Below are positions 4,433 through 50,663 of a DNA stretch of 50,663 nucleotides, piece after piece. The DNA is from a virus, in IMG/VR virus record IMGVR_UViG_3300032579_000827, positions 1 through 50,663 of that record; one strand, given 5' to 3'. The first letter of the stretch is position 1, and each line of letters starts with the position of its first letter. A model generated the notes under the pieces. The model was not told the origin of the DNA. It saw nothing but the letters and a program-made list of their open reading frames with translations, and made no database searches. Made by a program: the position numbers and the translations under genes.

Positions 4433-4433
4433 A

Positions 4434-5402: not shown

Positions 5403-5404
5403 TT

Positions 5405-6118: not shown

Positions 6119-7062
6119 CAGATAAACCTATTTTTATGATAGTTTACAATAGCAGGTAATTCTGTATCAAAATCTTTTTTGTTATTCCATCCATAAAGCT
6201 TTAATTTTGTATCATCTATGCTATAACGAACATCTTGTCCAGGCCGCTTTACAGAAAAGTCGGCATAGGTTTCAAATTCATCTGGATTGTAATCTAAACA
6301 AGCTAAGATTTTTTTAAAAATTGCAAGATTACTATCTTCGTAATTACCTGAAATATTAAAGATGTCATTCTTACAATCTTTTTCTAGCAAAAATATCAAC
6401 GCATCTGCAGTGTCCTGTGCATGTAGCCAAGTTCGTTTTGGTGTTCCATTTTCATGCAGTGGTACTTTTCTCCCTAGTGTTAGATATTGAACAGTTTTAG
6501 GAATGAACTTCTCAATATACTGTCCGATGCCATAATTGTTAGTTGGACGTACTATAAGATATGGAACTCTAAAAGTTCTATGCCATGCTTGAATCAGCAT
6601 ATCGGCGCTAGCTTTGGTTGCCGAATAAGGATTGCTAGGTAGCAATAGATCGTGTTCATAGTGACTACCTTCGTTTATATCGCCATAAACTTCGTCTGTG
6701 CTAAAATGCACAAGTGTAGGCATTCTAAACCTGTGCTTGTTTTGAATCAATCGTAGTAGATTGTGTACACCATCTATATTACTACGTATAAATTCGTCAC
6801 TACATGCAATACTATTATCAACATGTGTTTCTGCTGCTAGGTTTATAATATAGTCGCAGTCATACAAACTATTCAAATTACATATGTTTTGTGATGAGTA
6901 ACGAAAATTTTTATAGGCGTTAAAATCTTCAAGTAAGGCTGTATTAGCAGCATATGTTTGGCTATCAACACCAAAAACTTGCCACCCCTTTTCCAGACAA
7001 GTTTTTGTTACATAACTACCAATAAATCCTAGACACCCAGTGATTGTAACAACTTTTGTCAT
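6115..7062 (-). CDS. rmlB: dTDP-glucose 4,6-dehydratase / NAD-dependent sugar epimerase
   Basis: The 315-residue protein is an extended short-chain dehydrogenase: 'TGCLGFIGS' (residues 8-16) binds NAD, 'HFSTDEVYG' carries the substrate Thr and Asp-Glu pair typical of 4,6-dehydratases, and 'YSATKASAD' holds the catalytic Tyr-x3-Lys. 'RPTNNYG' follows in the usual place. The DE pair favours RmlB (dTDP-glucose to dTDP-4-keto-6-deoxyglucose) over a plain 4-epimerase. It is joined by ATGA overlaps to the transketolase subunit before it and the glycosyltransferase after it, so it probably supplies a deoxysugar to this operon. Confidence 0.88.
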   Translation of the reverse strand: MTKVVTITGCLGFIGSYVTKTCLEKGWQVFGVDSQTYAANTALLEDFNAYKNFRYSSQNICNLNSLYDCDYIINLAAETHVDNSIACSDEFIRSNIDGVHNLLRLIQNKHRFRMPTLVHFSTDEVYGDINEGSHYEHDLLLPSNPYSATKASADMLIQAWHRTFRVPYLIVRPTNNYGIGQYIEKFIPKTVQYLTLGRKVPLHENGTPKRTWLHAQDTADALIFLLEKDCKNDIFNISGNYEDSNLAIFKKILACLDYNPDEFETYADFSVKRPGQDVRYSIDDTKLKLYGWNNKKDFDTELPAIVNYHKNRFIW

Positions 7063-7541
7063 ATTTTCCTCGTTAAATTAAGATACGCTGGTCCGTCACC
7101 ATATATAAACTCTGGCCAGAATTCTTCTAGTTGACGTATAGACGCTGGTTTGAAGATTTTTATATTAGGTAGAACAGACAACACAGCTTCGTCGTCATGT
7201 GCCCAATGACTTATACCATCGTGATTATAATCTTGATCTCTGCCACTTCCTATCAATTTGACTGGAATTTTTTCATAATTAACATAGTTTCGTAACATTT
7301 CAAAAGGTCTATATAGTAAAAAACTAGACATAGAGTAACAAACGGGAATTTTTTTAGATTCTGCAAGTCCAATACCTGCACCAATTAATAGTTGTTCTGC
7401 TGCACCGACATTGAAAAACCGGTCTGTATATGTATCTTTAATTTGGTCTAATATACCAAATCCTAAATCTGCAGTTAATACAAATATGTTTGGGTTATCT
7501 GCCATCGAAGCATGCAATAGCTCCATACACTCTTTTCTCAT
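7059..7541 (-). CDS. Transketolase-like protein, C-terminal (pyrimidine-binding) subunit
   Basis: About 160 residues match the second (PYR) domain of transketolase: 'NIFVLTADLG' near the start, 'RFFNVGAAEQLLIGAGIGLA' with the glutamate that activates thiamine diphosphate, and 'GRDQDYNHDGISHWAHDDEA'. The third domain of full transketolase is missing. The start at ATG 7541 overlaps the stop of the N-terminal subunit as ATGA, which fixes it; the longer frame from 7607 would run through the partner gene. The two proteins should assemble into one active enzyme, as in split transketolases of bacterial polysaccharide clusters, and could feed an unusual sugar pathway. Confidence 0.85.
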   Translation of the reverse strand: MRKECMELLHASMADNPNIFVLTADLGFGILDQIKDTYTDRFFNVGAAEQLLIGAGIGLAESKKIPVCYSMSSFLLYRPFEMLRNYVNYEKIPVKLIGSGRDQDYNHDGISHWAHDDEAVLSVLPNIKIFKPASIRQLEEFWPEFIYGDGPAYLNLTRKI

Positions 7542-8146
7542 ATGCGTTTGTAATCCTCTTCTTTTAAGACATAGTAATGACTTAGAAGGCCCGTGGCAAA
7601 ATTCCATTTAGGCGGCGAAGAAATTCGTATACGTATGCTAGGAAGGAATGTCAACAGACGTTGAACCAAATAACCAACATCTAAGTATTCGTATGCGCTC
7701 ATTCCATTTATGTTGACATATACTATTAAGTTATCCAGTTTGGCAACATTAATAAAACGCAAACTTTCCCATATACTGCCTTCAGCAGCTTCGCCATCGG
7801 ATATCATGCAGTAAACCTTTTTAGAACGATTTGCTAAAGCATGCCCAACAGCAATCGGCAGCCCACTACCTAGACTCCCTGTGCTGCAATAGAGCTTGTT
7901 GTCAAGGTCTTTTCCAGGATGTATTCCATGTTTATGTAATAGCATAATAGGATCAATGCCGTAACGATATTCCAATTCGCAATATAATGCTAAACCAGCA
8001 TGCCCATTACTTAGAATAAAAACTTCGTCGTTAGCCTTTTCGTCATAAATTTCATGTATAATAGGCCAAGCCGATAAAACACTGCTCAAGTGACTTAGTT
8101 TTTCTTGATACGTTATATCTATAATACGTCTTTCTATCTGGTGCAT
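7538..8146 (-). CDS. Transketolase-like protein, N-terminal (TPP-binding) subunit
   Basis: About 202 residues carry the thiamine-diphosphate domain: 'GSLGSGLPIAVGHALA' and the metal/TPP motif 'ISDGEAAEGSIWES' followed by NxN. The C-terminal 'PPKWNF' resembles the conserved end of these split N-subunits. I chose ATG 8146 because an AAGGA ribosome-binding site lies just before it and the previous gene ends at 8148; the frame also has ATGs up to 8176. Paired and translationally coupled with the 7059-7541 gene. Confidence 0.86.
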   Translation of the reverse strand: MHQIERRIIDITYQEKLSHLSSVLSAWPIIHEIYDEKANDEVFILSNGHAGLALYCELEYRYGIDPIMLLHKHGIHPGKDLDNKLYCSTGSLGSGLPIAVGHALANRSKKVYCMISDGEAAEGSIWESLRFINVAKLDNLIVYVNINGMSAYEYLDVGYLVQRLLTFLPSIRIRISSPPKWNFATGLLSHYYVLKEEDYKRI

Positions 8147-8147
8147 A

Positions 8148-8861
8148 TTATCCTTTGTATGCATAAAGTGCATCATATCTATGTTTTATTGTATTATAAC
8201 CATTTTGCGAAAAGATTTGCATTAAATTGTCGCGATTGCGATTTAGACTTATCTCGGGCAAAAGTGTTGTATCTGTGGCATGAACCTCTACGCTCCACAC
8301 CGATACGATATCTTTAACTTCGTTTACAGTTTCATAAGTTAATGCTTGCATTTCAGACCCTTCTATATCGCATTTTACAAAATCCACCTTTGTTAGAGCC
8401 AGTTGGTTGATTAAATTAGCAAGTGTGGTGCCTGTGACAGCAACTTTTTGTCCATACTTGTTAACACTACTGTTCATAGTGCTATTCTCAGAACTAATAT
8501 AAAAATCAATAGGTTCGTTTTTATTATGTAATGCAGCGTTAATAGGGTGTATGTTTTTGTAATCTTTGGTTAGAAGACTAAGGAGTTGAAAATGACTTGG
8601 GGTAGGTTCAATGGTATACACATCTTTGGCTATATCTTGTATGTAAAGAGAAAACAGCCCAATGTTGCCACCTATATCTAAAACAGTAATATCATTCCAT
8701 CCTTCAAAAAATATATCATAAAACCTGTCATTGTTAAACATATCAAGCACAACATCGGCATAATTTGCAGGATTATTAAAATGTTTTATTAACTGTTCAT
8801 CATCGGAATTTATGGTTACTACACCTTTATTAGCAGTAACTAATTGCCGGAAAATTGTCAT
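8148..8861 (-). CDS. FkbM-family SAM-dependent methyltransferase
   Basis: The 237-residue protein has 'VLDIGGNIGLFSLYI' (SAM motif I, near residue 60), 'VYTIEPTPSHFQLL' (acidic motif II) and 'VDFVKCDIEGSEMQAL', the signature of FkbM methyltransferases, which O-methylate sugars or natural products. Its stop is just before the transketolase start and its own start overlaps the previous stop as TAATG. In this operon it probably methylates a sugar of the glycan. Confidence 0.88.
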   Translation of the reverse strand: MTIFRQLVTANKGVVTINSDDEQLIKHFNNPANYADVVLDMFNNDRFYDIFFEGWNDITVLDIGGNIGLFSLYIQDIAKDVYTIEPTPSHFQLLSLLTKDYKNIHPINAALHNKNEPIDFYISSENSTMNSSVNKYGQKVAVTGTTLANLINQLALTKVDFVKCDIEGSEMQALTYETVNEVKDIVSVWSVEVHATDTTLLPEISLNRNRDNLMQIFSQNGYNTIKHRYDALYAYKG

Positions 8862-9688
8862 TAGGTTAAATCCTTGTAATTAGCTGTTTCTAAAAAATCT
8901 TTGATACCTGTAATCAAGTCGTATCTACAATTAAATCCGTAGTATTTCGATGCATATGAAGTATCGCAACACCATACATTGGATTCAAAATTCTTTGCCA
9001 TTCGTGATACATGCTCAATCGGGGCAGTTTTTCCGGTTACTGTTTCAAATAGTTTTAGTACTTCTATATTACTATATTGCTTACCGGATCCAAAGTTTAT
9101 AATATCACCTGAATTAGTTTTATCTACATGAAGTAAAATATTAATACCATCTATAAAGTCATTAATGTAAATGAAATCATGCACTCCGTTGTATAAGGTC
9201 ATCGACTCATCTAATTGAAATGCACGCCACAGTCTAGGAAATAGTCTATGCGGTTTCTCATATCTTCCGTAAACACTGTAGGGTCTAGCAATTTTGATAT
9301 CCAATGCATACGTTCTAGCGTAACCCTGACATAGTAAAGTTGCCATGCCTTTTGTAGCTTGATACATGTCTATAGGGTTGATTCTATGCTGCTCTGAACT
9401 TGCAATTGAACTTGGCCCATATTCAGAACTAGACCCTATGTGTATCATCTTAGTTTGTGTATGCGTGCGCAACCAATCCAAAATCTCTTGTGTTAGTAAT
9501 ACATTAGTGTCCATCATTAAATCAGATTTATAGATTTCAGCGGCACAATGTATTATTACATCTGGTAAAAAGGTAGATAACTCTAATTTTAAATTTCCGC
9601 GAGTATATCTGTATACCTCATTATCTGCATAGAATTCGCACAAATTTTTTCCAATGAATCCGTTAGAGCCGGTAATAAAAATTTTCAT
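8861..9688 (-). CDS. NAD-dependent epimerase/dehydratase (extended SDR)
   Basis: The 275-residue protein begins 'MKIFITGSNGFIGKNLCEFY' (Rossmann nucleotide site), has 'IGSSSEYG' and 'YQATKGMA' (Tyr-x3-Lys catalytic pair) and 'ARPYSVYG'. It is a nucleotide-sugar epimerase, dehydratase or reductase; the exact sugar is not readable. The S-S-S-E-Y-G element lacks the DE pair of RmlB, so it is a different step from the 6115-7062 enzyme. ATGA overlap with the gene before it. Confidence 0.85.
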   Translation of the reverse strand: MKIFITGSNGFIGKNLCEFYADNEVYRYTRGNLKLELSTFLPDVIIHCAAEIYKSDLMMDTNVLLTQEILDWLRTHTQTKMIHIGSSSEYGPSSIASSEQHRINPIDMYQATKGMATLLCQGYARTYALDIKIARPYSVYGRYEKPHRLFPRLWRAFQLDESMTLYNGVHDFIYINDFIDGINILLHVDKTNSGDIINFGSGKQYSNIEVLKLFETVTGKTAPIEHVSRMAKNFESNVWCCDTSYASKYYGFNCRYDLITGIKDFLETANYKDLT

Positions 9689-10062
9689 TGTTTTGCTTTA
9701 GCTTCCATTCTATCTTTGCCACCATTTGAATACCAAAAAACATAATTGTAAAGATACATTTGATAATTTTCTGGTTCTAGACTTTTGAAATCGGCTGTTT
9801 CAAATTTATTTGCATATTCTTGTATGCGAGGATCATCTGGAGATTCAAAATAAACAGCATAGCAATAATCGCTGCTATCTTTATATCCAACAATTTCAGC
9901 AGGTTCATACTCTATACCGTTTTCACGGAACCATTTGATGTGTGCTTCTAAGCAGTTTTTTTCTGGTCCTAAACCGTCGCCGTGATTTTCAAAGTGCAGA
10001 AAAAGTGTGTCCTGGCATCTATCGTGTAGAATGTCATCAACTGTTCTTACACTTTTGGTCAT
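9685..10062 (-). CDS. Hypothetical protein of the glycan operon
   Basis: I do not recognise this 125-residue protein. It is acidic and rich in Tyr and Glu, without membrane segments or signal peptide ('HGDGLGPEKNCLEAHIKWFR' in the first half). It begins and ends in ATGA overlaps with its neighbours, so it is made together with the glycosyltransferases, which suggests an accessory role in the same pathway. Confidence 0.7.
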   Translation of the reverse strand: MTKSVRTVDDILHDRCQDTLFLHFENHGDGLGPEKNCLEAHIKWFRENGIEYEPAEIVGYKDSSDYCYAVYFESPDDPRIQEYANKFETADFKSLEPENYQMYLYNYVFWYSNGGKDRMEAKAKQ

Positions 10063-10709
10063 ACAATAACCTCTGGTATAATTTGATTAAAAAGTTCTAA
10101 CCTAACATGTAAAGGATGATCTGGACAATGAATTAAAAAATCACCTTTATGCCATTGACCACTAAACCCCATAGCGTCTAGGTTGTTTTTAGCTCCTTTG
10201 TTTTTATATAGAGGATAATGATAGGCGTTAAGATATCTTTGTGGAACAACTTTGACGGTATGTTTCCAATCTTGATAACTCTCCATCATAACGCCCTGTT
10301 CATAATAAGGGTGACGAGAGTATTGTGGTTGTTTATCCATAATCATTTGTAGCCAATCTCTAGCGTTTTTGTCATTGCGAACCACAAAGCTATCGGCTTG
10401 AATTCCATTAAAATCAGTTGAGATAGTCACAGAATATCCATCATAGAGAAATTCAGTTAAAGGAACGTGCCAATTTGTTATGAGTGTATCAGTGCCACTA
10501 AAATGCAGTAAATCGAAGTCGCTGTTATTCATTACTTCTAAGCAAAAGGCAATTTTCTCCCAACCGATTATAGGTTGTTTAAAGTTTTCTGTTTTCGCTA
10601 GTGCCCCGTAACCATTCTTTTTTGCATATAAGATTCTATTACGATGCCATGTTAAATCTGCCAGGATCTTATATTTTTCGTCATGTGTTGTTACTATTGC
10701 AGCCTTCAT
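10059..10709 (-). CDS. Glycosyltransferase, GT34-like (GMA12/MNN10 type)
   Basis: The 216-residue protein opens 'MKAAIVTTHDEKYKILADLT' and has 'NRILYAKKNGY', 'WEKIAFCLEVM' and 'FDLLHFSGTDTLITN', the order seen in galactosyl/mannosyltransferases of family GT34. In those the last element is a DxD metal-binding motif; here it reads GTDT, so metal binding may differ. 'YEQGVMMESY' and 'LIHCPDHP' fit the later conserved parts. Part of the co-transcribed operon; donor sugar unknown. Confidence 0.68.
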   Translation of the reverse strand: MKAAIVTTHDEKYKILADLTWHRNRILYAKKNGYGALAKTENFKQPIIGWEKIAFCLEVMNNSDFDLLHFSGTDTLITNWHVPLTEFLYDGYSVTISTDFNGIQADSFVVRNDKNARDWLQMIMDKQPQYSRHPYYEQGVMMESYQDWKHTVKVVPQRYLNAYHYPLYKNKGAKNNLDAMGFSGQWHKGDFLIHCPDHPLHVRLELFNQIIPEVIV

Positions 10710-11863
10710 AAAAATTTTCCTTGTTGTTGCCAGAGATTTAGGTTTTCGTGTAATAAATCAAAACTAGTAAGTTTTGTCAAGTCTCCTAAAAATTCGTCAC
10801 GTTGATAACTCCAACTTGTATTCATTGCAAAAAAATGACCAAATGTTATTTGATCCGTTTTTATATGCGGGCCGTATGTCTTGTGTAAATGCCATTGATA
10901 CTGAATGTTGCGTTGCGGATTTAACATCCATTTTACGCCTATGCCTCTACCATCGCCATGCGTTGTATGCCAATAATTAGAAAAATGTCTGTTGCAAAAA
11001 TCTACATCTTTCGCAACAACACCGGTTGTACTATCTATAGGTTCTATCCAAATTCCATCATACAATAAGACAGAGTGTTCGCCTGATGCACAGTATTCTG
11101 CAATACCGTCTAAATTTGAATTTTTTATAACAAGTAGCTCATCTGTATCCGCATTTATAACCAACCGAGCATCATATAAAAAACGCCATTTGGCATGTTC
11201 TAACATAACATATTGGCTAAAGTCGCTGTCCCAGGGCAGATAATTACCGCTTTTGCCTTGCCATTCCCATAATCCTCCGCCCATTACACCAAATGGTACA
11301 TCATAATCAACTACCTGTATAGCCACATCATCTCTGTATAACGCTGTTTCTAGCTCTTGGCTAGTATACAATGTACTTTGATTATTGTATAACAGTAACC
11401 CGTCAACATTGTGTACGGTTTTATGATAGTCTATCCATTGTTTTAACCAATCTATCGGATGATTTTTACTAATTGTTACAATAGTCTTCCTATTCTTAAA
11501 TTTATTTTCGCAATAATTGATTTGAATTTTGTGTGTTTGGAAAGGAGTTTTAAAAATTAGATACGGCATTAGATGCATTGTGTCCAGGCGTATCACTGAC
11601 GCACGATCTAGATTGCTATACCGCCATGTTAATTTTTGGCCTTTATCATCAATAAATTGGCAATTCAAGTTGATCCATTGAACAGTATCATATAACGGTG
11701 GGCCAATAATTAAAATTGCATTTGGATTGATTTGTATAACATCATTCCATAATGTTGTATAGTCATAGTTTTGTTCAAAATTTAATACCTGCAGTTCTGT
11801 AGATCTAGCAGGTGTACGAACGAACCCCCATTCAGGTTGATAGTTAAACTTGCTTAGGTTCAT
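10706..11863 (-). CDS. Glycosyltransferase, GT92/GT2-like
   Basis: The 385-residue protein has an N-terminal half of unclear fold and a C-terminal GT-A domain: 'IVTISKNHPIDWLKQWIDYH', 'VDGLLLYNNQST' and 'RLVINADTDELLVI' with a D-x-D metal site. This is the arrangement of GT92 ('DUF23') enzymes. It overlaps the next gene by ATGA and the previous one by about 20 bases. Confidence 0.75.
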   Translation of the reverse strand: MNLSKFNYQPEWGFVRTPARSTELQVLNFEQNYDYTTLWNDVIQINPNAILIIGPPLYDTVQWINLNCQFIDDKGQKLTWRYSNLDRASVIRLDTMHLMPYLIFKTPFQTHKIQINYCENKFKNRKTIVTISKNHPIDWLKQWIDYHKTVHNVDGLLLYNNQSTLYTSQELETALYRDDVAIQVVDYDVPFGVMGGGLWEWQGKSGNYLPWDSDFSQYVMLEHAKWRFLYDARLVINADTDELLVIKNSNLDGIAEYCASGEHSVLLYDGIWIEPIDSTTGVVAKDVDFCNRHFSNYWHTTHGDGRGIGVKWMLNPQRNIQYQWHLHKTYGPHIKTDQITFGHFFAMNTSWSYQRDEFLGDLTKLTSFDLLHENLNLWQQQGKFL

Positions 11864-12854
11864 CTGTTATACCGTACTTAACTTTAAGGTGTCTTAGTAT
11901 CATGTGATATGTACTTTCATTTTGAATGTCGCTGTTATACGGGTTATCGCCTTGCCAGCGAAACTTAAAAATGTTCCTGTGATTAAATAGTTCCGCACCG
12001 GACCTATCTCGCTGTACCATTACAGACCCACCTCCATATTTGCGCCAAGGATTGGCTACACCTTTATGAAATGGCCCAAACGGCATAAATCCATATGGAA
12101 TATCGTTGCTTGCTAGATAGTTGAATCTAGCATGGTATCCTTTATTTCTAATGGCAACATATTGCCAGACCATTCTCCAACATTCTGCGTCGCCGCCGAA
12201 GCTGTAATAAATGTCGCAATTTTCTGTATAATGTAACATTAGACAAAATTGTTGCCAGACTTTTGGTTTATTCAATAAAATCTGACCGCTTTCAAATGGT
12301 TCTGCATCATTTGGAGTGACTGCAAATATCTGCCACAAGTTACTGCTGTCGCAATATTGTTCCGCTCTGTCTATGCTATAAACATCTCGCCAAAATAAGC
12401 TGCCTTTGCTTTGGTATTCAGGATCATTAAAAAGATCTAAGCAGTTGCGTATTGGAAAATTATCTGAATCAATCCATAAATTTTCAGCATAGCTACTTTC
12501 AAACAGGGCATGTACTTTGGTACTCCAGCCTTTTACGTTGCCCCATTTATCGGTAAAATCTCTGGCATTTGTCTGCAACTGTTTGATTGACACATTTGAT
12601 GATGGATAACATTTACCTAGTTCTGTAATCTCGTTGCTATCTAGCTCTCCTGCTCTATAGAAAATTTCAATAGGAATATTAAATTCTAATCGTTTTAGCT
12701 CAGTTAACAAAATAAACATACTTGGTAATTCAGCTCTATAACAGCTGGTTACTAGGCTTTTTCCTGCTTGATATGCAGGCATAGGTACCAAATTATTACA
12801 GACATATTCTTTAGCCTGATTAATTTTTTCTAAATTAATTTCCATGTTATCCAT
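11844..12854 (-). CDS. Glycosyltransferase, GT71-like (MNN2/mannosyltransferase type)
   Basis: The 336-residue protein has 'GWSTKVHALFESSYAENLWI' followed by DSDN, then 'SLFWRDVYSID', closely following the pattern of alpha-mannosyltransferases of the MNN2/GT71 group, with DSDN as metal site. Two possible starts (ATG at 12854 or 12845) differ by three residues. It overlaps its upstream neighbour by 8 bases with the first start. Confidence 0.75.
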   Translation of the reverse strand: MDNMEINLEKINQAKEYVCNNLVPMPAYQAGKSLVTSCYRAELPSMFILLTELKRLEFNIPIEIFYRAGELDSNEITELGKCYPSSNVSIKQLQTNARDFTDKWGNVKGWSTKVHALFESSYAENLWIDSDNFPIRNCLDLFNDPEYQSKGSLFWRDVYSIDRAEQYCDSSNLWQIFAVTPNDAEPFESGQILLNKPKVWQQFCLMLHYTENCDIYYSFGGDAECWRMVWQYVAIRNKGYHARFNYLASNDIPYGFMPFGPFHKGVANPWRKYGGGSVMVQRDRSGAELFNHRNIFKFRWQGDNPYNSDIQNESTYHMILRHLKVKYGITDEPKQV

Positions 12855-13701
12855 ATTTCACTTGAATGATGTTTTTCCAATCTGGTATTCTGTCCCACTG
12901 ATGTAATATTGTGTGAACAGTACCGTTGTTTGTAGTTGACGTTTGCCCATTCCATAGCGGACCTGGTTCTAATAGCTTTGGCAAAAAAGCTGATATCTTT
13001 TTTGGATCAACAGTTGTGCCGGCCTGACACGCCCAACCATCTTCGCTCATAGTTTTCAAGGTAATGTTATTCCAACAAACGTTATCTAGCAAATAGTTGT
13101 ATGCTGCTTGATCTGGGTTATGTCTTTGAGCTGCTTTTGACAGCAACCAGATACTTAACCAAAGATCTCTAAGAGCAATGATACGCCCTGCTTGAACTCC
13201 GCAATTCCAAATCGGTTTTGATTTCATTCGCGGCCAAAGCATCGGATAACTACCGGACATATTATCCGCACCCCAGGGTTCGTCTTCGTAATGTAAACTT
13301 TCGCAACTAGCGACAATTTGTTTATTATTGCAATGATTTTCCAACCAAACACTTGGATTTCGTTGAAAAACTACATCCTTAACATCTGTTGTAATTACAA
13401 AACGATATGCGTCATCAGTTAGCTGACTTAAGTACCACCATAAATGATAAAATCTTTCTACTACGATATTTAAAGTTCCTGGCCAAAAAAAATCTCCGGT
13501 TTGCGGATTTTTATTAAATCCTAGAACCTTAAAATTTCTATCCAGAAGTTTTTGTACCGTGGCATAATCACTATTATAGACAATTACTAATTTATCGCCT
13601 GTAAAACCAGATTGTTCAATACTGTTGACCCAATATTTTATTTGGTCCCATGTATAATTGGTATACGCTCCGATGATTAGATCTTTTGATTGTTCAGTCA
13701 T
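12847..13701 (-). CDS. Putative GT-A glycosyltransferase, first gene of the glycan operon
   Basis: The 284-residue protein starts its recognisable part with 'LIIGAYTNYTWDQIKYWVNS' and has 'YRFVITTDVKDVVFQRNPS', an Asp-containing metal-site-like stretch, and 'WNCGVQAGR', a typical acceptor-side element of small GT-A transferases. A sigma70-like promoter lies immediately upstream with its predicted start only about 3 bases from the ATG, and there is no ribosome-binding site, so the mRNA may be nearly leaderless. It heads the chain of overlapping genes that runs to 3582. Confidence 0.65.
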   Translation of the reverse strand: MTEQSKDLIIGAYTNYTWDQIKYWVNSIEQSGFTGDKLVIVYNSDYATVQKLLDRNFKVLGFNKNPQTGDFFWPGTLNIVVERFYHLWWYLSQLTDDAYRFVITTDVKDVVFQRNPSVWLENHCNNKQIVASCESLHYEDEPWGADNMSGSYPMLWPRMKSKPIWNCGVQAGRIIALRDLWLSIWLLSKAAQRHNPDQAAYNYLLDNVCWNNITLKTMSEDGWACQAGTTVDPKKISAFLPKLLEPGPLWNGQTSTTNNGTVHTILHQWDRIPDWKNIIQVKYG

Positions 13702-43418: not shown

Positions 43419-44450
43419 ATGGCACTAAGTCTTAAAGAAATACAAGCAAAACTACTGGCACAACAAGCCAATAAAGACCGAGCAAAGAATGGCGGTGGCG
43501 ACAATTCGATTTATCCTTTCTGGAATAATCCAGATGGTTCAAGCGCTACTCTTAGATTCTTACCAGACGGCGATGAATCAAACGATTTTTTCTGGTGTGA
43601 ACGCTTAATCATTAAATTACCATTTCCTGGTGTAAAAGGCGATCCTATTGGAAGACCTGTCGATGTTCAAGTTCCGTGCACAGATATGTGGAAAGCAGGC
43701 TCTTGTCCAATTACAGCAGAAATTCGTCCATGGTGGAAAGACAAGAGCCTCGAAGACATGGCTCGGAAGTATTACAAAAAGAAGAGCTATCTGTTCCAAG
43801 GCTTTGTTCCATCAAACCCTAATAAGGATGATCAGGAACCGGAAAATCCGATCCGTAGATTTATCATCAATCCATCAGTGTTTGATGTTATTAAATCAAT
43901 CCTTATGGATCAAGATCTCGAAAATAGTCCTACTGATTTCGACCACGGACGTGATTTCTACCTTATCAAGACTACTAAAGGCGGTTATGCAAACTATGCA
44001 TCAAGCAAGTGGGCTATGAAGGAGCGTGCTCTATCAGAAATAGAAACTGCTGCTATGAATACTCATGGATTATGGAACCTAAGTAGTTTTCTGCCTAAAA
44101 AACCAGATGAAGCACATCTAAATGCTATAATGGAACTATTCCAAGCTAGCGTTGATCAAGAACTATATGATCTTGATAAATGGGGCCAATTTTACCGTCC
44201 AACTAGCATGCGTAATGACACCACAAGTAGTGACGCAGATGCAACAGTTGTATCAACAAAAACAACTGTTGCCATGACAGGTAATTCAATACTGAATAAA
44301 GTTCAGGCAAAACCCTCAACTGATGATACTCCACCATGGGAAGATCAGTCACAAGCTACACAATCTGTAACTACACAAGTTGAAAAACCCCGCATGCAAA
44401 CTCCTGATGATATTATTGCTGCAATACGCAAGCGTCAGCAAGGAAAGTAA
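43419..44450 (+). CDS. gp32: Single-stranded DNA-binding protein gp32
   Basis: The 343-residue protein has the T4 gp32 layout: basic N-terminus for cooperativity ('MALSLKEIQAKLLAQQANKD'), an OB core with 'IYPFWNNPDGSSATLRFLPD' and 'RRFIINPSVFDVIKSILMD', a Cys-containing segment 'VPCTDMWKAGSCPI' where T4 holds zinc, and an acidic, flexible C-terminus for partner binding. It coats ssDNA in replication, recombination and repair. A strong hairpin follows, then uvsX. Confidence 0.93.
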   Translation: MALSLKEIQAKLLAQQANKDRAKNGGGDNSIYPFWNNPDGSSATLRFLPDGDESNDFFWCERLIIKLPFPGVKGDPIGRPVDVQVPCTDMWKAGSCPITAEIRPWWKDKSLEDMARKYYKKKSYLFQGFVPSNPNKDDQEPENPIRRFIINPSVFDVIKSILMDQDLENSPTDFDHGRDFYLIKTTKGGYANYASSKWAMKERALSEIETAAMNTHGLWNLSSFLPKKPDEAHLNAIMELFQASVDQELYDLDKWGQFYRPTSMRNDTTSSDADATVVSTKTTVAMTGNSILNKVQAKPSTDDTPPWEDQSQATQSVTTQVEKPRMQTPDDIIAAIRKRQQGK

Positions 44451-44462
44451 GCTACATCATAA

Positions 44463-44494
44463 AATTGTAACGAGGGTTATCCCTCGTTACAATT
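44463..44494 (+). terminator. 14-bp hairpin between gp32 and uvsX
   Basis: AATTGTAACGAGGG pairs perfectly with CCCTCGTTACAATT around a TTAT loop. There is no T run after it, so it may be a weak terminator or an mRNA stabiliser that separates gp32 from uvsX expression. Confidence 0.62.
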
Positions 44495-44536
44495 GTGACA
44501 TCAAAAAACATCATCATTATAGCATTGGAGACACAC

Positions 44537-44773
44537 ATGCGTCCTTTTGACATCTCAAAATTTAGAAAAGATCTGACAAAAAGTATTCCAGGTATTTCTG
44601 TTGGATTTAATGATCCAAAACACTGGGTAGATTCGGGTAATTATGCACTAAATTATGCAATATCTGGTAACTTTAGGAATGGAATCCCATTAGGCAAGGT
44701 TACGATGTTTGCTGGTCAGAGTGGTTGTTTGCCTGCATCAGCCAAGGTTCGTATACAATATAAATTGAAATAA
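44537..44773 (+). CDS. uvsX: UvsX recombinase, N-terminal extein + very short N-intein 1
   Basis: First of three parts of a fractured recA/uvsX gene. Residues 1-63 ('MRPFDISKFRKDLTKSIPGI' to 'VTMFAGQSG') are the recombinase N-terminus up to the middle of Walker A. Residue 64 is the intein Cys1 of 'CLPASAKVRIQYKLK', a 15-residue N-intein with block A only, then a stop. The partner C-intein (123 residues) opens the 45970 gene, whose extein begins 'SGKSYI'; splicing restores GQSGSGKS. ATG 44537 is preceded by GGAG at the right distance. N-inteins this short are known as atypical split inteins. Confidence 0.9.
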   Translation: MRPFDISKFRKDLTKSIPGISVGFNDPKHWVDSGNYALNYAISGNFRNGIPLGKVTMFAGQSGCLPASAKVRIQYKLK

Positions 44774-44780
44774 TATTTTA

Positions 44781-44853
44781 CCTGTTTGTCCAGCATAATA
44801 ATAAATACTATGTAAAAATAATACTAGGAAACATAATATGTTGAACAAACAGG
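44781..44853 (+). promoter_or_regulatory. Start-sequestering hairpin with internal late promoter before homing endonuclease 1
   Basis: CCTGTTTGTCCAGCATA (44781-44797) pairs with TATGTTGAACAAACAGG (44837-44853), 17 positions with one mismatch and one G-U pair. The second arm includes the ATG (44838). The loop holds late core AATAAATA (44800-44807) with predicted start near 44813, so only late-initiated RNA lacks the first arm and exposes AGGA and the ATG. Confidence 0.78.
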
Positions 44854-45980
44854 CTAAAAGATTTATGAAACGGAAATCAGTTATTGCAATATTAGGAAAT
44901 ATTGCATTAACTGATTTACAGATAACTAGATTAAATGCAGTATTTAAAGACCGAACTTGCAAGTCATTAGAAACGTGGCATATAACTATAGCAACTTTTA
45001 TAAAATATGATTTAATAAATTATGTTGGAAGGTTACGTAGATTGATGAAAATACCAACTGATCGATCAAATGTTTCTGCGTTTTTACGGTATGGCAAGAA
45101 AAATTTTGAAAAAATTAAGCACGAACAGGACACCAGGCGTAGCAAACATTTTAAAAATACTGTAAAATATTGGACAGATTTAGGATTTGATATAGCAGCG
45201 GCTAATGACAAAGTTAAAGAGATACAACTTGAGAGGAACAAAAAATCAGTTGAAAAAACACGTGGCAAGAACATTTATACACATAGATCGATTGAATACT
45301 GGTTACGTAAGGGATTGACTGAATCTGATGCAGCCGAGCAAGTGCGTAGAGTTCAAACCACTAATGGATTAAAATTTTATACTGAAAAATACGGGAAAGA
45401 ACGCGGGAAGATTTTATTTGAGAATAGAATTAAATCGTGGCTAGATACATTACAATCTAAAAGTACTGAAGAAATTTCTCTTATAAATCGTAAAAAATCA
45501 TTATCAATTGATGGATATATACTTAGGGGATATTCAGAGGATGATGCGATTACAGCATACAGCGATATGTGCGAACGAATGCGACAAATCAATAGGTCTC
45601 CATTTTCAAATATATCGCATAAGCTTTTTTTAACTCTTCGAGAAAAACTCAAAGGAACATGTTATTTTAAGCCAACTACACACGAAGCATTGATAGGCGG
45701 ATTTAGAGTAGATTTCTATCATCTTGAATCAAAAACAGTCATTGAATTCTACGGAGATTATTGGCATAGAAATCCATTGTTTTTTTCAGCAGATTTTTTT
45801 ACACATGGTTACTGTTCGAAAGAAAAATGGACAACAGACGCAACTAGAGCAACAAAAATTAAAGAAGATACATCTCACGTGTCTAAATTACTCATAATTT
45901 GGGAAAATGAATATAGACAACAACCTGATGTAGTTGTTACAACCTTGTTAGAAAGTATAGGAAAAAATTATGTTTATTGA
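44838..45980 (+). CDS. Free-standing homing endonuclease 1 (Vsr/EDxHD-like) inside split intein 1
   Basis: The 380-residue protein has repeated helical DNA-recognition modules ('YWTDLGFDIAAANDKVKEIQ' near 111, 'YWLRKGLTESDAAEQVRRVQ' near 153, 'YILRGYSEDDAITAYSDM' near 228) and a C-terminal nuclease 'GGFRVDFYH' ... 'VIEFYGDYWHRNP', the core of the Vsr-like family to which phage homing endonuclease I-Bth0305I belongs. It would cut intein-free uvsX so that repair copies the split intein and this gene. Its 3' end overlaps the second uvsX part by 11 bases. Expression appears restricted to late transcripts by the upstream hairpin. Confidence 0.88.
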   Translation: MLNKQAKRFMKRKSVIAILGNIALTDLQITRLNAVFKDRTCKSLETWHITIATFIKYDLINYVGRLRRLMKIPTDRSNVSAFLRYGKKNFEKIKHEQDTRRSKHFKNTVKYWTDLGFDIAAANDKVKEIQLERNKKSVEKTRGKNIYTHRSIEYWLRKGLTESDAAEQVRRVQTTNGLKFYTEKYGKERGKILFENRIKSWLDTLQSKSTEEISLINRKKSLSIDGYILRGYSEDDAITAYSDMCERMRQINRSPFSNISHKLFLTLREKLKGTCYFKPTTHEALIGGFRVDFYHLESKTVIEFYGDYWHRNPLFFSADFFTHGYCSKEKWTTDATRATKIKEDTSHVSKLLIIWENEYRQQPDVVVTTLLESIGKNYVY

Positions 45981-47088
45981 GCAGGAAGTTACTATAGAAC
46001 TATTAAAAAACATGGTCGCTAGTAATAATTACCATATTGAAATAGATACACCCGATGGTTATCAACCGATAGGTCAATGGTTTGATAAGGGCAAATTACA
46101 AATGGTTTCAATAATTACGGAATCACACACTACATCATGTGCATATACCCATCTTCTACAATTAGATTCAGAAGATTGGGTATTAGCTGGAGAAGTGAAT
46201 GTAGGCGATGTTTTATTAACTACAAGCGGACCGCAAACTGTTATTGCAACTACAGACATAGATGATCAAGAATGTTTTGATTTCGAAGTCCTACATGATA
46301 ACCACCGTTACTGGGGAGATGGATTTTCTAGTCATAATTCTGGTAAATCTTATATCTGTTCTGGTAATATGGTTCGGAATGCACAGCAACAAGGTATATT
46401 TGTTGTCTTAATTGATACAGAAAACGCATTAGATGAAAAGTGGTTAAAACCTCTTGGCGTTGATACTGATCCGGATAAGCTTTTCAAAGTCAACCTAGCT
46501 ATGATTGACGATGTTGCTAAAACTATTACCGGTTATATGGCATGGTACAAAGACCTGGCTCCTGAAGAACGCAAGAAGACTCTTTTTGTACTTGATAGTC
46601 TTGGCATGTTGCTAACACCTACCGATGTAAACCAATTTGAAGCAGGCGACCTCAAAGGAGACATGGGACGTAAACCACGGGCGCTGGCTGCACTAGTACG
46701 CAACTGCGTGAACATGTTCGGCGAGTATGATGTAGGCATGGTTGTGACTAATCATAGTTATCAATCACAAGACATGTTTGATCCAGATGACAAAATTTCA
46801 GGCGGTTGTTTAACAGCCGGACACAAAATCTGGATGGCAGACGGTTCATCAAAGAATATTGAAGATATTCGGCAAGGGGATGTTGTTGTGACATTAGATG
46901 GTGATATTGATGTTTCAGAAACTTTTACATTTGATGACAAAGAAGTAATCGAAATTGAATTAGAAACTGGTGAAATAATTCAGGCCACTAACGAACATAA
47001 GTTTTCAACGCAACAGTCTAATAATCAATTAGTATGGAAAACTGTAGCGGAATTGTACGTAAATGATGAAATCCTACAACTTGTTTAA
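45970..47088 (+). CDS. uvsX: UvsX middle part: C-intein 1 + central extein + N-intein 2
   Basis: Residues 1-123 are the C-intein of the first split intein, ending 'DNHRYWGDGFSSHN' (block F/G, Asn as last residue). Residues 124-279 are the central recombinase: 'SGKSYICSGNMVRNAQQQG' (second half of Walker A), 'FVVLIDTENALDEKW', 'TLFVLDSLGMLLTP' (Walker B) and 'DPDDKISGG'. Residues 280-372 are a second N-intein ('CLTAGHKIWMADGSSKNIED', block B 'ATNEHKF'), 93 residues long. The protein thus carries a splicing half at both ends. AGGA precedes ATG 45970, inside the endonuclease gene end. Confidence 0.93.
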   Translation: MFIEQEVTIELLKNMVASNNYHIEIDTPDGYQPIGQWFDKGKLQMVSIITESHTTSCAYTHLLQLDSEDWVLAGEVNVGDVLLTTSGPQTVIATTDIDDQECFDFEVLHDNHRYWGDGFSSHNSGKSYICSGNMVRNAQQQGIFVVLIDTENALDEKWLKPLGVDTDPDKLFKVNLAMIDDVAKTITGYMAWYKDLAPEERKKTLFVLDSLGMLLTPTDVNQFEAGDLKGDMGRKPRALAALVRNCVNMFGEYDVGMVVTNHSYQSQDMFDPDDKISGGCLTAGHKIWMADGSSKNIEDIRQGDVVVTLDGDIDVSETFTFDDKEVIEIELETGEIIQATNEHKFSTQQSNNQLVWKTVAELYVNDEILQLV

Positions 47089-47098
47089 CTAATAATCC

Positions 47099-47150
47099 TT
47101 GCCCTCCAGTAATTTGCTAAATATACCGTACACAAATTACTGGAGGGCAA
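47099..47150 (+). promoter_or_regulatory. RBS-sequestering hairpin with internal late promoter before homing endonuclease 2
   Basis: TTGCCCTCCAGTAATTTG (47099-47116) is perfectly complementary to CAAATTACTGGAGGGCAA (47133-47150), 18 bp, hiding the GGAGGG ribosome-binding site of the gene that starts at 47156. The loop holds late core CTAAATA (47117-47123) with predicted start near 47129. Late-initiated RNA lacks the first arm and is free to be translated. Confidence 0.85.
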
Positions 47151-47155
47151 ACCAC

Positions 47156-48151
47156 ATGAAACCATGTGTTGAATGCGGAAAAATGATAAGAAAAAAAGAT
47201 AGTATAATGACTATACAATATGTATGTTCATCATTGTGCAAAAACAACAGAAAGTTAAAACAGCCTAAAAAAATCAGTCAAACTTCGGCTGAATATTGGC
47301 TAAAAAAAGGATTGTCATTGCAGGAATCGCAAGAAAAAATATCTCAACTTCAGAAATCTCGAAGTCCGCGTAGCGTTGATTATTGGATAAAGAAGGGATA
47401 CACTATGGAAAATGCTACCAAGCAAGTTTCTATAGTGCAACATGCTAATAGTCAACTGAGATTAGAAAAATATGATACGGTTGAAAGAAAACGTAGATCT
47501 CCATTTTGCAAAGAATATTGGATGGAACATGGAATGAGTGAGGATGAGGCTAAATCATACATTATGCAACGCTCTGATAATATGTCTTTGCAATATTTTA
47601 TATCAAAATTTGGAGAAACTGAAGGAACTTTGAAATATAATGCTCTATGTGAATCTAGAAAAATAAATTATACACTAGATGGGTATATTAACAATCATGG
47701 AGAAGTAGCAGGACGAAAGTTATGGTCTAAAAAATTTAAAAATAGACATAATTCAGAAAAGGCAAATAACTTTTTTCTAGAATTAAGCAATATATTTGCT
47801 GGCTGCAAAATTTATAGTGCCTGCAATGAAAATGGTGAATATGGAATTTTAGATTCAAATTTTAATTGTTATTATTTTTTCGATTTTGTTGTCCCAGAAT
47901 TTAATCTTTGTGTTGAATTTTATGGAGACTATTGGCATTGTAATCCAAAAAAATATAATTCTGAATACTTACATAAACAAACAAATTTAACAGCACAAGA
48001 AATATGGGACAGAGATAAAAACAAACAACAGTGTATGTTGAATACCAGAGGGTATCATACTATAGTAGTTTGGGAATCAGATAACATGCTAGAATCAATT
48101 AAAATGGTAAAGGAGTATATCAAAAATGTCGCTACAAAAAATCAAAATTAA
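47156..48151 (+). CDS. Free-standing homing endonuclease 2 (Vsr/EDxHD-like) inside split intein 2
   Basis: The 331-residue protein starts with a zinc-finger-like 'CVECGKMIRKK' ... 'CSSLCKNN', then helical modules 'YWLKKGLSLQESQEKISQLQ' and 'YWIKKGYTMENATKQVSIVQ' like those of endonuclease 1, and a nuclease core 'FFDFVVPEFNLCVEFYGDYW' followed by HCNP. ATG 47156 (not the earlier TTG frame start) is fixed by GGAGGG just upstream. The two endonucleases are clearly the same family but diverged, consistent with separate target specificities for the two intein sites. It overlaps the last uvsX part by 26 bases. Confidence 0.88.
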   Translation: MKPCVECGKMIRKKDSIMTIQYVCSSLCKNNRKLKQPKKISQTSAEYWLKKGLSLQESQEKISQLQKSRSPRSVDYWIKKGYTMENATKQVSIVQHANSQLRLEKYDTVERKRRSPFCKEYWMEHGMSEDEAKSYIMQRSDNMSLQYFISKFGETEGTLKYNALCESRKINYTLDGYINNHGEVAGRKLWSKKFKNRHNSEKANNFFLELSNIFAGCKIYSACNENGEYGILDSNFNCYYFFDFVVPEFNLCVEFYGDYWHCNPKKYNSEYLHKQTNLTAQEIWDRDKNKQQCMLNTRGYHTIVVWESDNMLESIKMVKEYIKNVATKNQN

Positions 48152-48653
48152 AAGTAAAAAAAATATAGGTATCAAAAAAGTATATGATATATCAGTGCCC
48201 GATGCGCATCATTATCTATTAGATAGCGGCGTAGTCAGCCATAACTCGGGTTTCATTTATGCATCATCAATTGTTGTAGCTATGCAAAAGCGCAAGCTTA
48301 AAGAAGACGAAGATGGTAAAAAGGTTACAGATGTTCGTGGTATTCGTGCTGCATGCAAAATTATGAAGACTAGATATAACAAGCCGTTTGAAAACGTTGA
48401 AATAAAAATCCCTTGGGATACAGGTATGGATCCTTATAGTGGTCTCATTGACCTTTTTGAGAAGAAAGGTGTCTTAGTAAAAGATAGTACAAAACTAAAA
48501 TATGTTGACAACTCAGGTAAAGAACACAAATATTTTCGTTCAGCTATACCTACGTCACTTCTAGATCAAATCATGAATGAGTGGGATGAAAGCAAACTAT
48601 TACAAACACAAGACAGTCTAGACAATGATACGGTAACTGATATAGGAGAATAA
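48126..48653 (+). CDS. uvsX: UvsX C-terminal part: C-intein 2 + C-terminal extein
   Basis: Residues 1-40 ('MSLQKIKIKSKKNIGIKKVY' to 'SGVVSHN') are a classical short C-intein ending in His-Asn; residue 41 is the +1 Ser of 'SGFIYASSIVVAMQKRK', the recombinase segment that follows the GG loop. The last 135 residues complete the ATPase core and C-terminus. With the other parts, mature UvsX would have 63 + 156 + 135 = 354 residues (T4 UvsX: 391). AAAGGAG lies 10 bases before the ATG. Confidence 0.92.
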   Translation: MSLQKIKIKSKKNIGIKKVYDISVPDAHHYLLDSGVVSHNSGFIYASSIVVAMQKRKLKEDEDGKKVTDVRGIRAACKIMKTRYNKPFENVEIKIPWDTGMDPYSGLIDLFEKKGVLVKDSTKLKYVDNSGKEHKYFRSAIPTSLLDQIMNEWDESKLLQTQDSLDNDTVTDIGE

Positions 48654-48654
48654 C

Positions 48655-48894
48655 ATGGAAATTTCTGAACACGTACTATTGGAAACTTGGGAGCTATTTT
48701 CAGATTTTGTACCACCTGGTAAGAAAAATGATGCTGCTGTTCGGTTTCTTAAAATCTTTATAGATGCAGATATAGATCTTGATGACCTAGAAGAATTAAG
48801 GGAAGAAGATGAGCATTTGGACTACGCACTAGATGAACTGGCAAGTAGCCTCGATGAAGGATATGAAGATGAACCTGAATACGAAGAAGAATAA
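48655..48894 (+). CDS. Small acidic protein downstream of uvsX
   Basis: The 79-residue protein ('MEISEHVLLETWELFSDFVP') is highly acidic at its end (Glu/Asp clusters) and helical. It follows the uvsX stop by one base, so it is co-expressed with the recombinase. I do not recognise a family; a role with the recombination proteins is inferred from position only. Confidence 0.68.
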   Translation: MEISEHVLLETWELFSDFVPPGKKNDAAVRFLKIFIDADIDLDDLEELREEDEHLDYALDELASSLDEGYEDEPEYEEE

Positions 48895-49378
48895 ATTTAA
48901 AGATCGTTTAATGCGCACAGCTATAAACGAAAACACAAGCACTACAACGGAGTTGTCTACAGACAACTCCGTTGTTGAAGAACACGATAAACTATCCGTT
49001 GATCCTGTGCTAAATCAACAAGACGCTGACGATTCTATGTTGATTCAAAATATTCACATCGAAAATGATGTTCCAAAATTTGAAACCAAACAAGAAACAC
49101 TAGAATCATTAATTAAGCGTAAAACGATAAAATTACCAAAACCTGAAAATGAACCAAATGAAGATGTACCAGAAACACCTGTGCACACATCATATGCAGA
49201 AGCTTTATCTCAGGCATTTGTGTTAACTGATCATGATTTACGTAAATTAATAGTCGAAGTAGAGCATGCAGTTGCTAGAAAAGATCCAAATGAAGTGGTG
49301 TGGCTGCAACTTCAACTGCAAGCAAAAACATTGCTGTTACTCAAAGCCTTAGATTGGAAATTGTGGAAAACTTTATAA
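48869..49378 (+). CDS. Hypothetical protein between uvsX and uvsY
   Basis: The 169-residue protein is acidic and flexible in its first 100 residues; the last 50 ('VLTDHDLRKLIVEVEHAVAR', 'LQLQAKTLLLLKALDWKLWK') form a helical domain. The frame is open from 48833, but ATG 48869 has AAGGA 7 bases upstream and is preferred; it overlaps the previous gene by 26 bases. An inverted repeat (GGAGTTGTC / GACAACTCC near 48950-48971) lies inside the gene. Function unknown. Confidence 0.62.
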   Translation: MNLNTKKNKFKDRLMRTAINENTSTTTELSTDNSVVEEHDKLSVDPVLNQQDADDSMLIQNIHIENDVPKFETKQETLESLIKRKTIKLPKPENEPNEDVPETPVHTSYAEALSQAFVLTDHDLRKLIVEVEHAVARKDPNEVVWLQLQLQAKTLLLLKALDWKLWKTL

Positions 49379-49393
49379 TAGATATGTGTTTTA

Positions 49394-49861
49394 ATGTGGT
49401 ATAATCGTATAGTAGAAAATCTAGCTGAAATTCCTTCGGCAATTGATTACTATAATAGCGAACTTGATTCAGCTAAAAATGAACCTAAAATATCTGGTAA
49501 ACTGGAAAAAAATTCGCAAGAATTATCGGGTATCACCTCGCACAGGTTTGGGCAGCTTCAGGAAATAGAAGCTATCCTAAAACATCTTAATATCAAATAT
49601 GACAAAATGCGAAGCGATCATTATAGAAAATATCTAGAAAGATACCAGCGTGATTTAACTGATCGCAGTATAGAAAAATACATTGATGGCGAGGACGATA
49701 TTGTCAGCATGAATATGATTATTAATGAAGTAGGCCTAGTAAGAAACAAATACCTAGCCCTTATGAAGGGACTAGAAATTAAAAATTGGCAAATATCAAA
49801 CATTGTTCGACTACGAGTAGTTGGCATGGAAGATGCTAATCTTGATACAAAAGGTGGCTAA
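49394..49861 (+). CDS. uvsY: Recombination mediator protein UvsY
   Basis: The 155-residue protein has 'YRKYLERYQRDLTDRSIEKY' followed by a YIDGE-like stretch, and 'IINEVGLVRNKYLALMKGLE', 'WQISNIVRLRVVGMEDA', matching UvsY of cyanophage-type T4-like phages. UvsY loads UvsX onto gp32-coated ssDNA. It is followed 2 bases later by uvsW. Confidence 0.84.
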   Translation: MWYNRIVENLAEIPSAIDYYNSELDSAKNEPKISGKLEKNSQELSGITSHRFGQLQEIEAILKHLNIKYDKMRSDHYRKYLERYQRDLTDRSIEKYIDGEDDIVSMNMIINEVGLVRNKYLALMKGLEIKNWQISNIVRLRVVGMEDANLDTKGG

Positions 49862-49863
49862 CA

Positions 49864-50663
49864 ATGAAACAAGTTGAATTAATAATTGAAGATGAAACTA
49901 CAGTAAAACTAGAAGGACTTGATCTCAAAACACGCCGGTTATGTGTAAACGCTGTAAAATATTTTCTACCACATGCTCGCTATAGTCCAGCATTTAAACT
50001 AGGACGATGGGACGGGACCACAAGTTTTTGTACTTTAGGTGGTAGAACATACCTTAATTTGCTAGATAAAATTTTACCTGTTCTACTTGACGAAGGCTAT
50101 GAATTTACCATAACTGACAAAAGAACTAAGCACGTTTTTGAATTTGATAACATAGATGAAAATTTTTTAAGCCATATTGTGTGGCCTGCAGGACACAGAT
50201 TTGCAGGGCAACCTATTATTCTAAGAGATTACCAAGTTCAAGCCATTAATGAGTGCGTCAATAACTTACAGGGAATTTCGGTTGCACCAACTAGTGCCGG
50301 TAAAACAATTATTACAGCAAGTCTATCTATGATTGCCCAAAAATATGGTCGTACAATCGTTATCGTTCCTAATAAAAATTTAGTTCTGCAAACAGAAGAA
50401 GATTACAGAAATATTGGACTAGATGTCGGCGTACTATTTGGCGATAGAAAAGAATATAATCGCACCCATACTATTTGCACGTGGCAGAGTTTAAATGTTT
50501 TAGATAAGAAAAATAAAGATGCTTTAGATGATGACCAACTGGCTGTGTTTTTAGATAATCTAGTGGCAGTGGTATGCGATGAATGTTTTAATGGTGATAT
50601 GCGTGTTTTAACACCTACCGGATATATTCCAATAAAGGATATATCGTCTGGGCAACAGGTTAT
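49864..50663 (+). CDS. uvsW: UvsW DNA helicase, N-terminal part, interrupted by an intein (partial)
   Basis: Not closed within the window. Residues 1-240 are UvsW: an N-terminal substrate-binding domain ('AFKLGRWDGTTSFCTLGGRT'), 'LRDYQVQAI' (120-128), Walker A 'APTSAGKT' (141-148), 'TWQSLNVL' and 'VAVVCDE' (motif II). At residue 241 (codon 50584-50586) the expected C-H of DECH is replaced by an intein N-terminus, 'CFNGDMRVLTPTGYIPIKDI', block A. The insertion point is the helicase motif II DE|CH. Whether the intein is contiguous or split cannot be seen. UvsW unwinds branched DNA in recombination-dependent replication. Confidence 0.88.
   Translation, partial: MKQVELIIEDETTVKLEGLDLKTRRLCVNAVKYFLPHARYSPAFKLGRWDGTTSFCTLGGRTYLNLLDKILPVLLDEGYEFTITDKRTKHVFEFDNIDENFLSHIVWPAGHRFAGQPIILRDYQVQAINECVNNLQGISVAPTSAGKTIITASLSMIAQKYGRTIVIVPNKNLVLQTEEDYRNIGLDVGVLFGDRKEYNRTHTICTWQSLNVLDKKNKDALDDDQLAVFLDNLVAVVCDECFNGDMRVLTPTGYIPIKDISSGQQV

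Follow-up and report, generated by a model that had tools for sequence, protein, structure and literature searches.

The gene for the recombinase UvsX in the environmental phage record IMGVR_UViG_3300032579_000827 (IMG/VR) is very probably fractured twice by split inteins with free-standing homing endonucleases, with two trans-splicing events needed to assemble the protein. The record, a linear and incomplete fragment of 50,663 nt, was analysed at full length and is referred to here as the window. Pieces of uvsX were found on three separate plus-strand frames: P1 (44537–44773, 78 residues), P2 (45970–47088, 372 residues) and P3 (48126–48653, 175 residues). An earlier note, made from the letters alone, had described recombinase pieces of 63, 156 and 135 residues (354 in sum), intein halves of 15 and 123 and of 93 and 40 residues, and an endonuclease gene in each gap. 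These counts and coordinates proved exact on re-check; the intein halves were recovered by matches to VidaL, DnaE inteins and Pfam, and the two homing endonucleases (HEN1 and HEN2) by PHROG matches and alignment of catalytic motifs. The coding region of an enzyme is therefore broken, with complementary intein halves on separate frames and a free-standing endonuclease in each gap.

The N-extein of UvsX (63 residues, 44537–44725; PHROG 97, E = 2.9e-12) starts at an ATG with the Shine-Dalgarno sequence GGAG 5' of it, ends with TMFAGQSG in the Walker A loop, and is followed by the N-terminal half of intein A (IntN_A; CLPASAKVRIQYKLK, 15 residues plus a stop, 44726–44773), which aligns with VidaL. 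Homologous split N parts occur in PA5oct and in many contigs. P2 opens with the C-terminal half of the same intein (IntC_A; 123 residues, 45970–46338, C-terminal GFSSHN), continues with the middle extein (156 residues, 46339–46806, SGKSY...DDKISGG; PHROG 97, E = 2.2e-29) and closes with the N-terminal half of intein B (IntN_B; 93 residues plus a stop, 46807–47088), in which Cys1 and a TNEH block B are present and which matches PF14890 (Intein_splicing, E = 1.5e-7). P3 is made up of IntC_B (40 residues, 48126–48245, C-terminal GVVSHN; C-terminal part of PF14890, E = 0.002) and the C-extein (135 residues plus a stop, 48246–48653, SGFIYASS...; PHROG 97, E = 9.6e-15; PHROG 18112, recombinase, E = 2.3e-24). 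A separate Shine-Dalgarno sequence precedes each of P1, P2 and P3, and the 3' ends of HEN1 and HEN2 overlap the starts of P2 and P3 by 11 and 26 nt, respectively.

Errors of assembly or sequencing that created stops in two ordinary maxi-inteins have a negligible probability of explaining these frames. The sequence is a metagenomic contig, but two further IMG/VR contigs (L084 and L085) replicate 11.0–11.7 kb of the window and differ from it by a single mismatch apiece (99.99% nucleotide identity); the same split positions, separate starts and Shine-Dalgarno sites are seen again in cultured phages and in numerous unrelated contigs; and the endonucleases are separate genes with starts of their own. 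Assembly error and frameshift were accordingly ruled out by the two near-identical contigs and the cultured relatives.

Joined in silico, the exteins give a 354-residue protein that reads as an ordinary UvsX. Over 95% of its length it shares 71% identity with UvsX of Sinorhizobium phage Phosso, and it matches the solved UvsX structures 9gbg (E = 1.9e-36) and 3io5 from T4 (E = 4.9e-18); the middle extein alone is 74–79% identical to inteinless UvsX sequences in IMG/VR. Chance does not come near to accounting for these matches and those of the inteins. Site A falls within the Walker A loop (GQSG/SGKS, the slash marking the insertion point), and joining restores GQSGSGKS together with the conservation of the RecA core; before ligation, neither P1 nor P2 contains a complete ATP-binding loop. 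Site B follows the GG of ISGG/SGFI in the UvsX core.

Intein A belongs, by its sequence, to the VidaL family and is not new as an intein. It matches the VidaL structure 6vgv with E = 1.1e-40 and 51% identity, and shares the features of that type: an IntN of about 15–16 residues, a split after the second beta strand, Cys1, a terminal His-Asn and Ser+1. An AlphaFold model of P2 (pLDDT 76, pTM 0.43, moderate overall) was used for domain identity only; in it, intein A superposes on the 6vgv crystal structure with a root-mean-square deviation of 0.9 Å over 125 columns. Among 27 homologues of intein A the terminal His-Asn, the block B His and the block F residues are invariant, and an IntN of 15–17 residues followed by a stop recurs in about 20 contigs. 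VidaL is a naturally split intein with a 16-residue IntN and a trans-splicing half-time of about 1 min at 37 °C (PMC13014065). Since the VidaL chain is identical, over the stretch compared, to the IntC of uvsX contig L231 (in the tree and by direct comparison), VidaL itself is a uvsX site-A intein. Three phage contigs, L231, L232 and L002, carry a uvsX site-A intein that matches this biotechnology intein. The window and VidaL (6vgv/6vgw) thus share the family, the ultra-short IntN (15 and 16 residues, respectively) and the insertion site; they differ in that the two inteins are only about 50% identical and that L231, L232 and L002 are without an intein at site B.

Intein B is a canonical split intein, with an IntN in the range of about 90–120 residues, Cys1 in block A, a TxxH block B (TNEH) and an IntC of 35–40 residues ending in His-Asn before Ser. 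Its similarity is to the DnaE/gp41 type (E = 2e-9 against DnaE inteins). Relatives were sought with the intein sequence stripped of extein, as the UvsX motif DMFDPDDK is too common and swamped the extein-bearing query; Cys1 and the block B EHKF are invariant in the 10 homologues, and IntC_B is 92–100% identical across L131–L137. Because site B is split in the same way in cultured T4-like phages, intein B is likewise not new as an intein. No match to the LAGLIDADG family PF14528 was found inside either intein. The only match between inteins A and B covers 33 residues out of register (BLASTP E = 0.001), and A is split near its N terminus and B at the canonical endonuclease site, so that their halves should not cross-pair productively and the two reactions would be orthogonal by geometry. 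The same geometry would prevent unproductive pairing within P2, including its cyclisation, despite an IntC at the front and an IntN at the back.

A pathway can be proposed in which two independent intein/homing-endonuclease elements fractured uvsX, leaving three polypeptides with their own ribosome-binding sites: UvsX(1–63)–IntN_A, IntC_A–UvsX(64–219)–IntN_B and IntC_B–UvsX(220–354). IntN_A, split after the second beta strand, would pair with IntC_A, and IntN_B with IntC_B; each pair would then trans-splice via Cys1 and Ser+1 to give UvsX as one uninterrupted chain of 354 residues, its Walker A loop intact, and UvsX function would depend on both ligations. The presumed role of HEN1 and HEN2 is to cut uvsX alleles that carry no intein and so to propagate the cassettes. 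The endonucleases would be silent on early read-through mRNA, where hairpins would hide their ribosome-binding sites, and be switched on from late promoters within the hairpin loops.

Both endonucleases are Vsr-like. HEN1 (380 residues, 44838–45980) carries EFYGDYWHRNP and matches PHROG 22677 (E = 7e-13) and the homing endonuclease family PHROG 3339; HEN2 (47156–48151) carries EFYGDYWHCNP and matches PHROG 22677 (E = 3.6e-23). The HEN2 frame is open from 47099, and its start is likely the ATG at 47156, behind GGAGG, rather than the TTG at 47099. The two are 22% identical (E = 1e-15) and fit the catalytic signature E...DF...E.xGDxWHxNP...D..R...VWE of an alignment of 17 endonucleases, which we take to be that of the published Vsr-like homing endonuclease family. 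This assignment rests on the motif and the PHROG matches, since no convincing relative was found in Pfam (queried with HEN1 and HEN2) or in the Protein Data Bank (queried with HEN1).

Ahead of each endonuclease lies a hairpin with a late-promoter-like loop, a device that the earlier note had missed. The RNA hairpin at 44781–44853 covers the HEN1 start and holds AATAAATA in its loop, with TAAATA at 44802 (minimum free energy −21.5, z = −4.95); a perfect 18-bp hairpin at 47099–47150 masks the HEN2 Shine-Dalgarno sequence GGAGG and holds GCTAAATA in its loop, with TAAATA at 47118 (minimum free energy −29.0, z = −8.5). The HEN2-type hairpin is kept in L132–L137, and among 29 distinct endonuclease-containing gaps a folding z below −2 was obtained in 23 and TAAATA was present in 23. 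Within the window, 12 of 26 TAAATA occurrences lie no more than 90 nt upstream of a start on the same strand (the two endonucleases counted), including those of structural genes. These structural genes are preceded by the shorter TAAATA core only and not by the exact T4 late promoter TATAAATA, of which the window holds 2 copies against 7.6 expected and so shows no enrichment. The arrangement matches the control published for I-TevI and segB of T4 and mobE of Aeh1, in which a hairpin hiding the ribosome-binding site silences early read-through mRNA and transcripts from a late promoter in the hairpin escape it and give expression (PMC2988022); here, the device would govern, and time, endonucleases inside split inteins.

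To place the window among its relatives, uvsX loci from IMG/VR and GenBank phages were sorted by the state of inteins A and B: absent, in frame, split around an endonuclease, or split with none. Counts are of distinct middle exteins among the loci retrieved and are lower bounds rather than abundances. At least 75 had neither intein and at least 20 had only a contiguous (cis) mini-intein A. Intein A was split with an endonuclease in at least 17 and without one in at least 6; for intein B the corresponding numbers were at least 6 and at least 2. The earlier note had judged a double split much more unusual than a single fracture and had proposed a search of metagenomes for further cases. The arrangement is not unique: doubly split uvsX was retrieved in about five lineages, namely the window (the same as L084 and L085), L086, L227, L001 and L097. 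HEN2 is truncated in L086, whose contig ends there, and L227 is missing the endonuclease at site A. The N part of L097 lies off the contig, and its IntC_A has its own ATG after a stop. L001 is free of endonucleases at both sites; its matched coding parts lie 122 and 70 nt apart, and no endonuclease remnant is recognisable in these gaps. In L117 and L221, intein A is in cis and B is split. In-frame TAG codons were also noted in L123 (2551–2553 and 3565–3567) at two positions that are Ser in relatives, which may reflect a recoded stop codon.

Splits outlive endonucleases. Endonuclease 3' remnants were found in the endonuclease-less gaps of L002, L003, L092, L115, L118, L131, L143 and L240, with the last 25 codons of HEN2 kept in L131, and the endonuclease tail provides the ribosome-binding region and the start of the downstream UvsX piece. 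Because endonuclease-less gaps often retain these 3' ends, the simplest path is one in which arrival of an endonuclease splits the intein, the endonuclease decays and the split remains, with L001 as the end point at both sites. The same gaps bear on the idea that the interruptions are group I introns removed from RNA, which has as negligible a probability as assembly error. Vsr-like homing endonucleases reportedly occur in introns too, according to Dassa et al. in 2009, but the idea was rejected, with no Rfam intron match in 44400–48900: intein blocks flank each gap, the starts of P2 and P3 overlap the endonuclease ends, and endonuclease-free gaps of 62–300 nt still hold the split.

Traces of mobility were seen at both sites. 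The intein B and HEN2 block of the window is 90–98% identical to that of L132–L137, as against 68–73% for the middle extein and 59–65% for the distal C-extein, and the 105 nt directly downstream of the intein B insertion are 84–97% identical. This tract is what would be expected of gene conversion in homing, and the intein B/HEN2 cassette bears a homing signature. For intein A, L097 and L151 form a natural pair of occupied and empty alleles, 99.7% identical over 2,815 bp starting 3 nt inside the middle extein; intein A is present in L097 only, and site A is uninterrupted in L151. This pair suggests that site B was broken first and that intein A came later, the alternative being a loss of A in L151.

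Rough ratios of nonsynonymous to synonymous substitution (dN/dS) were low for the intein halves: between the window and L086 they were 0.08 for IntC_A, 0.17 for IntN_A (15 codons only) and 0.13 for IntN_B, and between L001 and L227 they were 0.085 for IntC_A and 0.12 for IntN_A, the remaining regions being saturated at synonymous sites. These low values point to maintenance of the intein halves as proteins under purifying selection, endonuclease-free lineages included. They also bear on a rival in which uvsX is simply a gene in pieces, its fragments associating non-covalently and its intein halves being passive remnants. Pieces of the Aeh1 ribonucleotide reductase (RNR) reportedly function unligated. 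In that T4-like phage the RNR gene is broken by insertion of the homing endonuclease mobE (PMC2988022), and the persistence of splits after endonuclease loss would agree with such a state. However, passive tails would not be expected to keep invariant catalytic residues in both inteins or to be held under purifying selection, site A separates G from SGKS within the ATP-binding loop, an improbable place for a break in an enzyme that stays unligated, and relatives carrying the same intein in cis must splice. We therefore regard this rival as unlikely.

The surroundings of uvsX are those of a T4-type recombination cluster, as its neighbours are a gp32-like single-stranded DNA-binding protein upstream (43419–44450, plus strand; PHROG 1192, E = 1e-59) and, downstream on the same strand, a UvsY-like recombination mediator (49394–49861; PHROG 231, E = 4e-15) and the N-terminal piece of UvsW (49864–50663; ResIII/DEAD matches). 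The earlier note was right about two split inteins in uvsX and overlooked a third in the adjacent uvsW, which is broken in its DEAH motif (VVCDE/CHS) by a split intein of 96 and 35 residues (L085, 10895–13661). Its IntN begins at 50584; the associated endonuclease (HEN3, 303 residues, of another type than HEN1 and HEN2) and the UvsW C-terminal piece lie beyond the end of the window, in L085, and an identical copy of the uvsW intein was found in L137.

Retention of gp32, uvsY and uvsW beside the fractured uvsX argues against a second rival, somewhat less likely than unligated pieces, in which mobile elements have inactivated uvsX, the inteins are dying and the phage draws on RecA from its host or on some other recombinase. 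In its favour, homing elements are capable of damaging genes, and the record is a fragment with room for a second recombinase. Yet the exteins remain conserved as UvsX, dN being much lower than dS, and the doubly split arrangement recurs in the lineages listed above. The earlier note had named an intact uvsX elsewhere in the genome as a finding that would tell against it; no second uvsX was found within the 50.7-kb linear fragment, and in the complete genome of the cultured Pseudomonas phage PA5oct a uvsX fractured at site A is the sole copy.

Assembly of UvsX by two trans-splicing events is thus strongly preferred here, with several points weighing against it. Splicing is an inference, spliced UvsX protein having been seen neither for this phage nor for any relative. 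Another recombinase may lie beyond the incomplete record. Intein B shows similarity of the DnaE type only, with no experimentally tested homologue close to it, and the specificity of HEN1 and HEN2 is likewise presumed. In several of the dN/dS comparisons, synonymous sites are near saturation. Finally, the intein A tree implies about 11 changes between cis and split forms (9–11 in bootstrap replicates), of which strongly supported branches force only one, so that repeated conversion is likely rather than proven.

Each component of the locus is of a known kind. Dassa et al. reportedly described, in 2009, fractured genes in which a split intein interrupts a replication or repair enzyme and a free-standing Vsr-like endonuclease occupies the gap. 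The window shares both features; here, two unrelated inteins with different split positions break a single gene at two places, and uvsX relatives have lost both endonucleases and retain both splits. The new elements are two split inteins in one protein and the endonuclease-free relatives. A literature search, with the 2009 loci outside its reach, returned no natural protein reported as needing two split inteins.

Single fractures at either site are present in cultured phages, where public records label them as duplicate recA-like genes or hypothetical proteins. In the T4-like phages ELT1, Pm5461, VmeM-32 and TG1, a canonical split intein with an endonuclease in the gap interrupts uvsX at the homologous site B (GG before Ser or Thr; TGG/TG in Tequatrovirus ELT1, against ISGG/SGFI in the window). 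They differ from the window in the single fracture and in Thr+1 rather than Ser+1, and in TG1 and VmeM-32 the gap endonuclease is annotated as GIY-YIG or SegG-like rather than Vsr-like. The recorded host of ELT1 (L270, 3362–5847) is E. coli K-12 MG1655, and similar loci are L271, L272 and L273. In the Pseudomonas phages PA5oct and MIJ3 it is site A of uvsX that is interrupted, by a VidaL-type split intein (17-residue IntN) accompanied by a Vsr-like endonuclease; unlike the window, these phages are without an intein at site B. The first uvsX piece of PA5oct (L082, 3260–6266) and MIJ3 (L083), of 81 residues, is annotated as hypothetical, and the C piece of PA5oct is listed as detected by electrospray tandem mass spectrometry (ESI-MS/MS). 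For MIJ3, the authors described a split intein in polB only (PMC6892783). Salicola phage SCTP-2 gp204 has UvsX inteins at both sites A and B, as in the window, but both are contiguous mini-inteins in a single frame without an endonuclease.

Two observations elsewhere in the window, both on the minus strand, are recorded here. A homing-endonuclease-like gene (1558–2397; PHROG 3339, E = 4e-88) adjoins the major capsid gene in opposite orientation, and epimerase-like (sugar-nucleotide), glycosyltransferase-like and transketolase-like frames were recognised, by eye only, amid structural genes at 3582–13701.

Three-segment tandem trans-splicing has been built by protein engineers (PMC12707363), and the doubly fractured uvsX appears to be its natural counterpart; two natural intein pairs with different split positions are also candidate orthogonal tools. 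With uvsW included, two recombination enzymes would need five polypeptides and three splicing reactions. There is a twist in that UvsX is among the functions used in T4 homing (PMC2988022), so that the elements break the very recombinase that T4-type homing needs. Taken together, the relatives span almost every stage towards permanent breakage, from empty sites through cis mini-inteins, splits with an endonuclease, splits with an endonuclease remnant and splits alone to two splits. The origin of split inteins, a long-standing question, can thus be tested directly, in phages for which laboratory hosts exist. Relatives such as L001, in which both endonucleases are gone while both splits and their inteins are kept under selection, raise the more tentative possibility, which we would not favour at present, that the three-gene, two-splice UvsX is a stable way of making the protein and not a transient infection by homing elements. 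If so, gene breaking would work as a ratchet that turns in one direction only, or assembly in two steps may serve to time or dose recombination.

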